64,000 nt of DNA from Salipiger bermudensis. Its GTDB lineage: Bacteria; Pseudomonadota; Alphaproteobacteria; Rhodobacterales; Rhodobacteraceae. Under the pieces are notes generated by a model that had not been told where the DNA came from, searched no databases, and saw only the letters and a program-made list of their open reading frames with translations. Position numbers and translations under genes: made by a program. The stretch spans positions 62,001 to 126,000 of the forward strand of contig NZ_JAIUZY010000011.1 of NCBI RefSeq assembly GCF_020171625.1. Direction: 5' to 3'. Positions 1,813 to 59,613 of the stretch are shown here, one piece after another. Position 1 is the stretch's first letter, and each line of letters opens with the position of its first letter.

Positions 1813-2026
1813 GGACCGCCCGCAGTGAACGGCGCTCAATCAGGAAACGTGTGGCCGAAGCGCCAGTTCCTCGGCCACGCCAGACCATCGACGGCCTGAC
1901 GCATGGTCAGCCTGAAGCGATTTCAAGCAATCCGGAAGCGTTTGAAATGGTGGAAAACTCTCTGCGTGGCGCGGTCACGCCGCCCCCGCCGTAACAGCCC
2001 GACTTGCGCCATGCACCGGACGCAGA

Positions 2027-2060
2027 GCGGGTCTGCATCCTCATGCATTGAAAGACCCGC
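2027..2060. repeat. Nested inverted repeat (long hairpin)
   Basis: Outer arms GCGGGTCT (2027-2034) and AGACCCGC (2053-2060) enclose inner arms GCAT (2035-2038) and ATGC (2043-2046) around a CCTC loop. It lies just upstream of, and partly overlaps, the possible promoter of the small RNA and could be either an operator or the end of an upstream transcript. Confidence 0.4.
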
Positions 2061-2075
2061 CGCGATCCTCCAAAT
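2048..2075 (+). promoter_or_regulatory. Possible promoter of the small RNA
   Basis: TTGAAA at 2048-2053 and CCAAAT at 2070-2075 are 16 bp apart, which would place transcription start near 2082. The spacing and the TTGAAA element are compatible with a heat-shock-type (RpoH) or housekeeping promoter. I recall that CcsR RNAs of Rhodobacter are RpoH-dependent, which is the only reason to favour the former. Weak call by eye. Confidence 0.25.
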
Positions 2076-2082
2076 GAACCCC

Positions 2083-2205
2083 AACGAACATTTACGAATG
2101 TTCATCAAGTTTCCTGAGGCTCTCTCCTCCTCCCTGAGCCTGGGAATCAGCGGCGACCCTCTCTCCTCCTCCCTGGGGGTCGCCGCGCCTCCCCCTCCTC
2201 CCCTG
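2083..2205 (+). ncRNA. CcsR/'cuckoo'-like small RNA with three CCTCCTCCC motifs
   Basis: Two consecutive stem-loops have unrelated stems but a shared loop sequence: AGGCTC/GAGCCT (2117-2122/2136-2141) and GGCGACC/GGTCGCC (2152-2158/2178-2184), both enclosing a CTCTCTCCTCCTCCCTG-type core. CCTCCTCCC occurs at 2126-2134, 2165-2173 and 2194-2202. A further 7-bp hairpin (2086-2092/2097-2103) precedes them. Stem divergence with loop conservation, tandem arrangement and an anti-Shine-Dalgarno CCUCCUCCC loop are the hallmarks of the alphaproteobacterial 'cuckoo' RNAs, including CcsR1-4 of Rhodobacter sphaeroides (stress-induced, tied to C1 metabolism and glutathione). The third copy has no clear stem. 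Ends are estimates. I see no DUF1127 gene upstream as in Rhodobacter. Confidence 0.65.
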
Positions 2206-2241
2206 TCCCCACACGGAAGAAGCGGAAGACGCGACGTCTCG

Positions 2242-3741
<1,500 letters not shown>

Positions 3742-3752
3742 GGATCTTGCTC

Positions 3753-5000
3753 CTATCCGAAGGATTTTTCTGCGCTTGCCGCCTGCGACCGGATCTCGGA
3801 CGAGGCCGCGATCTGGTAGTCGGCTGCAAAGTGTTCGTGGTTCTGCGACACGCGGGCCAGATCGTAAAGGTAGTTCACCATCACGCCGCCCGACTGGGCC
3901 ATGCCCTTGTCGGAGGTGTCGGCCCGTGCGTGGACCTTGTGGACCAGCGCGCCGTTGCCGAGGTGGAAGCGGGCGACCGGGTCCTGCGGCGCGCCGTTGG
4001 GGCGCCGCGCCTTGGTCAGGTAGTAGGCGGCCAGCTGCGTCATCCGCCCGTCATCGGTGACGTCATGGGCATGGCCTTCGGCCTCGAGCCAGCGGGCGAA
4101 GCCCGGGATCGGCGAGAGGGTCACGAAGGTACTCAGCTGCGGCAGCTCGAGCGCGAGATCGGCGGCCACCTGCTTGATCAGCGAATTGCCGAACGAGATG
4201 CTGGCCAGCCCCGACTGGCAGTTCGAGATCGAGTAGAACACCGCGGTGTCGGCCTCCTGCGGGGCGATCTTGTCGCGCTCCTCGGCCAGCAGGGTCTGGA
4301 TCGAACCGGGCACGCCCTTGGTCAGCGCGACCTCGACGAAGATCAGCGGCTCGTCGGGCATCGCCGGGTGGAAAAAGGCAAAGCAGCGCCGATCCTCGGG
4401 CTCGAGCCTGCGGCGCAGGTCGTCCCAGCTGTCGATGGCGTGAACCGCCTCGTAGGCAATGATCTTCTCGAGGATCTGCGCCGGGCTGTCCCAGTTCATC
4501 GGTCGCAGCACGAGGAAACCCCGGTTGAACCAACTGGCGAACAGGTGGCGGAAATCGAGATCGAGCGCCTGCAGCGAGTCGTCTCCTCGGCTTAGCCGCA
4601 GCAGGTCGGCGCGCATGTGCACCAGCGCCTGCGTCGCCCCCGGCACCTGGTTGAGGCGACGGATCAGCTCCTGCCGGGGCGGCTCGGCCGCCTCCATGAA
4701 GGCACGGTAGCTCGACTTGCTCTGGCCCTGCTCATAGGCGTCGAGCGCGCTGCGCACGGCCTCGGCGTCGATGGTCATGTCCTGCGCGAGGTGACGGAAG
4801 AAGGCGAGCTTGGCCTCGTCGTCCATGCCCGCGTAGCGCCCGAGGATGCTGCGCGCCACGGTCTGGCCCGAGACCTCGCCCGAGGCGCCGATCAGGTCGG
4901 CGGTCAGCGCCTCGAGCGGGCGGTTGTCGGGCTTCGAGCTGCCGCCGATGCGGTAGCGGCGCTCGAACACGGTGGAGAGAAGATCGGCGAGAATGGTCAT
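3753..5000 (-). CDS. matA: Malonyl-CoA decarboxylase
   Basis: A 415-aa protein of the MatA/MLYCD family, which converts malonyl-CoA to acetyl-CoA and CO2. The N-terminal helical half is followed by the GNAT-like catalytic half, with FFHPAMPDEPLIFVEVALTKG around residue 228 and the conserved CQSGLASISFGNSLIKQV segment in the middle; the C-terminal FHLGNGALVHKVHARAD stretch is typical. The start at 5000 gives ATGA overlap with the TRAP permease gene, so translation is coupled. No N-terminal targeting signal, hence cytoplasmic. A longer frame in the same register reaches back into the permease gene and is not real. Confidence 0.93.
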   Translation of the reverse strand: MTILADLLSTVFERRYRIGGSSKPDNRPLEALTADLIGASGEVSGQTVARSILGRYAGMDDEAKLAFFRHLAQDMTIDAEAVRSALDAYEQGQSKSSYRAFMEAAEPPRQELIRRLNQVPGATQALVHMRADLLRLSRGDDSLQALDLDFRHLFASWFNRGFLVLRPMNWDSPAQILEKIIAYEAVHAIDSWDDLRRRLEPEDRRCFAFFHPAMPDEPLIFVEVALTKGVPGSIQTLLAEERDKIAPQEADTAVFYSISNCQSGLASISFGNSLIKQVAADLALELPQLSTFVTLSPIPGFARWLEAEGHAHDVTDDGRMTQLAAYYLTKARRPNGAPQDPVARFHLGNGALVHKVHARADTSDKGMAQSGGVMVNYLYDLARVSQNHEHFAADYQIAASSEIRSQAASAEKSFG

Positions 5001-8030: not shown

Positions 8031-8110
8031 GGTTTCTCCTCCCAGAGTTGACCGGATTATGCCCCCGGTCGCCGACCAACCTTGCAATGATTGTTTTTCC
8101 AGTCAAGGTT

Positions 8111-50276: not shown

Positions 50277-50338
50277 GTGCTCCTCCCTGAAACCCCGCCC
50301 CGCGCACGGGACCGGGCGATGTCTGCCGCGACCGGGCG

Positions 50339-59585: not shown

Positions 59586-59613
59586 CTTTGTCCTCCTCCC
59601 TTTCCAGGGTTCC

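Follow-up and report, generated by a model that had tools for sequence, protein, structure and literature searches.

What kind of gene is a short stretch of DNA in which one anti-Shine-Dalgarno (anti-SD) motif occurs three times, what would drive its expression, and on what would its product act? The stretch lies in a 64,000-nucleotide segment of the alphaproteobacterium Salipiger bermudensis (contig NZ_JAIUZY010000011.1, positions 62,001 to 126,000; hereafter the window). A preliminary description, made from the sequence, had read positions 2083-2205 as a tandem small RNA (sRNA) of the CcsR or 'cuckoo' type with three anti-SD motifs, lying outside the usual setting behind a DUF1127 gene and perhaps connected to C1 metabolism through the methanol pathway encoded in the same window. 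Its orphan status is upheld: no DUF1127 gene is found on the window's contig at E <= 1.

Structure and family membership of the RNA

Three copies of CCTCCTCCC, starting at 2126, 2165 and 2194, lie on the + strand within 77 nt; over all 64 kb of the window the motif occurs four times, where shuffling gives an expectation of 0.97. The + strand folds with a z-score of -5.5, a stability equalled by none of 200 shuffles, and in this fold the motif is wholly unpaired in the open loops of both cuckoo hairpins (Table 1), the first of which spans 2117-2141 in the single-sequence fold and is lengthened to about 2111-2145 by the family consensus. The stretch also falls within a large + strand ORF (1903-3819), which was ruled out as it runs antisense to the well-supported matB; a coding reading is further opposed by the changes between copies, which track base pairs.

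Table 1 Features of the sRNA locus, its promoter, its neighbour, the candidate target sites and the related operon of the same genome
Feature	Position	Strand	Remarks
Promoter-distal box GCCATGC-N7-GCA-N3-CGGGTCTGCA	2008-2037	+	LysR/LsrB-type; near-invariant in 52 copies
Candidate -35 (TTG 2048-2050) and -10 (CCAAAT 2070-2075)	2048-2075	+	Column counts, 52 copies
RNA stretch	2086-2203	+	5' hairpin, two motif hairpins, pyrimidine tail
5' hairpin, 7 bp, GAACATT-TACG-AATGTTC	2086-2103	+	UACG loop, motif-free; fold
Cuckoo hairpin 1	2111-2145	+	CCUCCUCCC loop at 2126-2134; fold, family consensus
Cuckoo hairpin 2, 12 bp	2150-2186	+	CCUCCUCCC loop at 2165-2173; fold, family consensus
Unpaired C/U-rich 3' tail	2188-2203	+	Third CCTCCTCCC at 2194-2202
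Malonyl-CoA synthase gene matB	2242-3741	-	Convergent neighbour, outside the RNA gene; NCBIfam NF005702, 819.6 bits
Candidate target site GGGAGGAG	8036-8043	-	5 nt before ATG 8030 of the TRAP gene dctP
Candidate site GGGAGGAG	50280-50287	-	Before ATG 50276; predicted secreted, binding-protein-like; xoxF-like region
Candidate site, full 9-nt complement GGGAGGAGG	59592-59600	-	Before ATG 59585; cytochrome c-550-like gene
DUF1127-CcsR operon	contig C4 (L018:1834-2760)		DUF1127 gene, then 14 cuckoo hairpins (seven units)

The RNA structure is under selection. Among 47 copies, standard pairs occupy 95.6% of the pair cells, both-sided changes occur at 17 of the 25 pairs, and the covariation score reaches 0.34, against 0.20 after shuffling and 0.05-0.11 when the partners are slid. 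Covariation is present in all three helices, including the 5' hairpin with both-sided changes at four of its six pairs; RNAalifold missed this hairpin, partly through a one-base shift in a few rows including that of the window, and it was a count over the named structure that showed it. A GNRA tetraloop caps the 5' hairpin of 29 copies out of 51, whereas the window copy has UACG. The proposals of a cuckoo-type RNA with anti-SD loops, and of loops conserved over diverging stems, are both borne out: the three motif positions, the two hairpins and the stable fold are as described, and the loop letters are invariant while the stems covary across the copies. The extent given for the locus needs amendment, in that the hairpins do lie within 2083-2205 but the 5' hairpin had been omitted and the functional unit starts at the promoter, at 2008. 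All three motifs are likewise present as claimed, but the third sits in the unpaired tail and is not conserved. The full motif occurs in the tail of one of 51 orphans, namely the window copy, and CCTCC in 36 of 51; a conserved third anti-SD element is thereby ruled out, and the third copy is a peculiarity of the window locus. Pyrimidines make up 83% of the tails versus 55% of the sequence farther downstream, and a terminator scan of the + strand found no U-tract or Rho-independent terminator at the 3' end of the RNA.

With at least two adjacent hairpins, CCUCCUCCC in each loop and variable stems, the RNA has the defining features of the cuckoo superfamily, and we are highly confident that the window stretch is an sRNA gene of that superfamily. 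The cuckoo RNA family with its CIN1 locus, reportedly described by Reinkensmeier and Giegerich in 2015, is said to consist of adjacent hairpins that carry the same loop motif on variable stems, and the window RNA similarly has neighbouring same-motif loops on differing stems. The covariance-model search that the preliminary description had called for gives + strand matches to CcsR1 (RF02791; 2109-2191, 50.4 bits, E 4.4e-11) and to ar14 (RF02344; 45.0 bits, E 9e-7), but both remain below their cut-offs (65.3 for CcsR1 and a gathering cut-off of 58.8 for ar14), and a default Rfam scan of the window is silent for this reason. Nine Salipiger loci were scanned in all, and every one of them stays under the Rfam cut-offs. 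With the ar14 model, rhizobial controls score 97-116, above the cut-off, and an orphan from Yoonia passes it barely at 59.4; a class-wide ar14 search returned no copy over the cut-off from a sample that was probably too thin.

The architecture of the RNA points in two directions. In common with CcsR1-4 of Rhodobacter sphaeroides (PMC10253847, PMC8307010) it has a tandem two-hairpin unit with CCUCCUCCC loops and belongs to the same bacterial order, and it shares an upstream box with the array operons of the family; unlike CcsR1-4 it is a single unit outside any array, with its own start and 5' hairpin, with no DUF1127 (ccaF1) gene upstream after which it would be co-transcribed and no Rho-independent terminator at its 3' end. 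In common with alpha-r14/NfeR1 of Sinorhizobium and its relatives it is a free-standing gene with three hairpins in a row, the last two displaying CCUCCUCCC anti-SD loops, and its own promoter carries an LsrB-type box some 60-72 nt before the inferred start. Unlike NfeR1, in which all three hairpins bear the anti-SD motif, the Salipiger RNA has a motif-free first hairpin (UACG or GNRA) and a last hairpin without a U-tract terminator, and the Salipiger orphans are more numerous per genome and scattered. Sinorhizobium medicae has a tandem pair of ar14 genes with a spacing of about 270 nt (L193:6912-7305). By cut-off as well as by architecture, the RNA cannot be formally placed in CcsR1 or ar14. 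We therefore treat it as a separate variant, belonging to a subfamily of dispersed orphans that is marked by a pyrimidine tail and by a 5' hairpin lacking the motif. The earlier CcsR assignment stands as regards the cuckoo type but not as a simple stray CcsR, since the copies form a dispersed set with a promoter of their own.

Dispersed copies in the genus

Orphan copies were sought by BLAST and then with a covariance model in 20 genomes of the genus, taken in the GTDB sense to comprise Salipiger, Alloyangia and Citreicella. At 95 bits or more the covariance model finds at least 57 orphans in 17 of the 20 genomes, up to seven per genome and scattered across chromosome and plasmids, and none in the other three; a gap in score separates the orphans (95-131 bits) from the DUF1127-CcsR arrays (85 bits at most). 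Scores at the orphan level occur beyond the genus in only two of 151 sampled genomes of the family, and other Rhodobacterales carry orphans of greater divergence. The genome under study holds a second orphan on contig C5, 89% identical to the window RNA over the aligned part, in addition to a DUF1127-CcsR operon whose array comprises seven units compared with the four CcsR sRNAs of R. sphaeroides and has a T-run behind its last hairpin.

In the nearest species the alignment resumes exactly at 2008 and continues at 90% identity, 1509-2007 being unalignable; the hairpins are thus conserved between close relatives, as the first reading required. An apparent absence of the RNA from the syntenic site of a third species (G019) was ruled out, the site being occupied by a run of N that marks an assembly gap. 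This run lies exactly over the RNA (C5, near 576960), as if stable hairpins hinder sequencing, and the absence of orphans from draft genomes needs cautious reading. The flanks of 52 orphan copies fall into about 25 distinct contexts, and the RNA is annotated in none of six annotated public copies. A phage origin was ruled out, there being no match among phages. Around the second orphan on C5 we noted six ACGAGTG words at irregular spacing upstream (about 3300-3040 of the locus, reverse strand), at which no tandem repeat was called, and, about 700 nt downstream, more hairpins with CCTCCC-type loops (about 2040-1920 of the locus, reverse strand) that match ar14 weakly (E 2.7e-4).

A conserved promoter with a LysR-type box

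Conservation upstream of the RNA starts abruptly at GCCATGC (2008) in the 52 copies compared, with none before it, and from there the same order of elements recurs: ATGC-N8-CA, C-N-G-N3-T, TTG and a -10-like cTAnnT. Within the promoter-distal box, which contains the LysR-type patterns T-N11-A and GCAN-N3-NG-N3-T, the ATGC columns are kept in 51-52 of the 52 copies, CA in 52 and 51, and the T at 2034 in all; a G precedes CA in 30 copies, that of the window included. We infer the location of the core promoter from conservation only. The -10 element of the window copy, CCAAAT, is a poor fit to the consensus cTAnnT, a consensus scanner reports no sigma-70 hexamers at the candidate core promoter, and the words TTGAAA and CCAAAT can be read either way as regards an RpoHI/RpoHII promoter. 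Transcription would begin at about 2082-2085, and with a start at 2083 the ATGC-N8-CA box (2011-2024) would lie at about -72 to -59. NfeR1 of Sinorhizobium is activated by the LysR protein LsrB from TGCA-N6-GCAT at -72 to -60 (PMC10746234). Both genes have an LsrB-type LysR box whose symmetry is of the TGC-N7-GCA type, located about -72 to -58. The published box of VtlR (LsrB) is GCAT-N3-TG-N3-T, and it stands before AbcR1 and VrsA of Agrobacterium, both VtlR/LsrB-regulated sRNAs (PMC7486931), whose likeness to the window locus lies in the regulator, the RNAs being different.

The box is not confined to Salipiger. When 84,980 genomes were scanned for ATGC-N8-CA together with two spaced motifs, a pattern for which one or two chance matches are estimated, at least 119 stretches in other genomes matched; among the records listed, those titled below phylum are all alphaproteobacterial, Rhizobiales and Rhodobacterales mixed. 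The G before CA, which lay outside the search pattern, is present in 69 of 80 loci of this set, and its rhizobial loci are ar14 over the cut-off. The ATGC-N8-CA box also precedes 26 of 27 array loci of the Rhodobacteraceae, and in most of these a CcaF1-like ORF separates the box from the hairpins. The box suggests an additional LysR input to CcsR, the promoter of which is described as RpoHI/RpoHII-dependent in R. sphaeroides (PMC10253847).

A candidate regulator is encoded in the same genome: a Salipiger LysR protein (C1:168083-168937) and S. medicae LsrB are each other's best match, sharing 40% identity overall and, within the DNA-binding part, 45 of 60 residues. The query was the S. medicae LysR gene beside trxB, an arrangement taken from PMC11975290; no trxB was found within 1.5 kb of the Salipiger homologue. 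LsrB has been stated, from a few selected species, to be unique to Rhizobiales (PMC11975290), and the presence of a homologue in Salipiger, a member of the Rhodobacterales, for which order LsrB had been reported absent, is at odds with that statement.

Candidate targets and proposed working

The genome contains 46 sites of the form GGGAGGAG-N3-9-ATG versus six for the reversed pattern. Nine of the 31 proteins read from GGGAGGAG sites are periplasmic binding proteins (seven TRAP DctP and two ABC-type), against one of 18 for AAGGAGG sites taken as a contrast; this contrast is small and post hoc and the enrichment suggestive only, and strong ribosome-binding sites may simply be a general trait of binding-protein genes. 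NfeR1 silences mRNAs through its anti-SD motifs, and most of its target candidates encode ABC transport systems (PMC10746234). When loop matches were ranked over the genes called crudely in the window, the top four were those of the starts 52856, 59585, 53509 and 50276, all of them at 49-62 kb around a PQQ methanol/ethanol-family dehydrogenase, again a post hoc observation. The cytochrome c-550-like gene (ATG 59585) adjoins this dehydrogenase, and its site is retained in the relative G019; the site at 50280-50287 is retained in two relatives. Retention of the sites of the xoxF-like region in a relative has low power at an overall identity of 93-96%. Several genes of the xoxF-like region between 49300 and 59600 have perfect 8-9 nt complements of the anti-SD loop at their ribosome-binding sites.

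CcsR is reported to target FlhR mRNA (PMC8307010) and to modulate C1 metabolism (PMC10253847). The proximity of the methanol pathway, from which a C1 link had been drawn, is by itself no evidence for one because the copies adjoin unrelated genes; a link through target pairing and not through neighbourhood is possible, and the candidate sites lend it a little support.

The locus probably works in the manner of NfeR1, as a cuckoo-superfamily sRNA with its own LysR-type promoter and with anti-SD loops acting in trans. An LsrB/VtlR-like LysR regulator, probably responsive to redox or nutrient state, would bind ATGC-N8-CA about 70 nt upstream and recruit RNA polymerase. The resulting transcript of about 110-120 nt, starting near 2083, would begin with the 5' hairpin, which is probably protective, continue with the two hairpins that display the CCUCCUCCC loops, and end in the pyrimidine tail. 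By pairing in trans with Shine-Dalgarno sequences to which they are strongly complementary, GGGAGGAG[G], the loops would prevent translation, chiefly that of the periplasmic binding proteins belonging to TRAP and ABC transporters. The dose would be raised by the scattered sister copies and by the DUF1127-CcsR array, whose promoter is of the same type.

Alternatively, the locus could be a detached CcsR unit, with promoter and hairpins descended from the DUF1127-CcsR operon, that has lost its DUF1127 gene and is still an RpoH-driven stress RNA, its maturation aided in trans by CcaF1 from the array, an account that overlaps in function with the NfeR1-like explanation. CcsR1 is the top Rfam match, array and orphan promoters have in common the box and a TTGTGC..GCAGCA block, and in an orphan of another Rhodobacteraceae genome (L262) an array-type box is immediately followed by a 5' hairpin and then two hairpins of the cuckoo type. 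We nevertheless consider such an origin improbable: the -10 consensus differs between orphans (cTAnnT) and arrays (CCATnTT-like), the orphans have a covarying 5' hairpin at the transcript start and no U-tract terminator, and for them release from a precursor is unnecessary. It is very unlikely that the hairpins have no role in trans and serve purely as structure, terminating transcription in both directions or insulating convergent genes from each other. They are indeed very stable, and a convergent gene, here matB, often lies some 20-150 nt downstream of the copies; yet the + strand lacks a T-run, the loops stay invariant while the stems change, and the conserved promoter points into each copy. 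A self-spreading mobile or REP-like DNA repeat is also hard to sustain, even though the paralogues are dispersed with differing neighbours (also at the six annotated copies), many singletons and some positions near contig ends, for every helix shows compensatory changes, the promoter block is kept, some groups are syntenic, and no transposase is annotated beside the six annotated copies. That the functional RNA is read from the reverse strand, its GGA-rich loops (which read GGGAGGAGG) serving for instance as a CsrA sponge, can practically be discounted, with a fold z of -2.9 versus -5.5 on the + strand, where both the Rfam sRNA matches and the conserved promoter lie.

Beyond the NfeR1-like working of the single locus, we tentatively put forward that a single LysR regulon of the LsrB/VtlR type, predating the rhizobia, may drive cuckoo sRNAs across the Alphaproteobacteria, including NfeR1, DUF1127-CcsR and the Salipiger set. 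CcsR in Rhodobacter and NfeR1 in rhizobia have been studied separately and with different regulators, RpoH and LsrB/NtrC respectively; because the box is shared and an LsrB homologue is present, the idea of a common regulator lends itself to direct test. Salipiger offers a natural case of an sRNA amplified as much as seven-fold and spread over the genome and, if the proposal is true, these sibling RNAs of a LysR regulon would jointly tune transporter genes and perhaps those of methanol oxidation.
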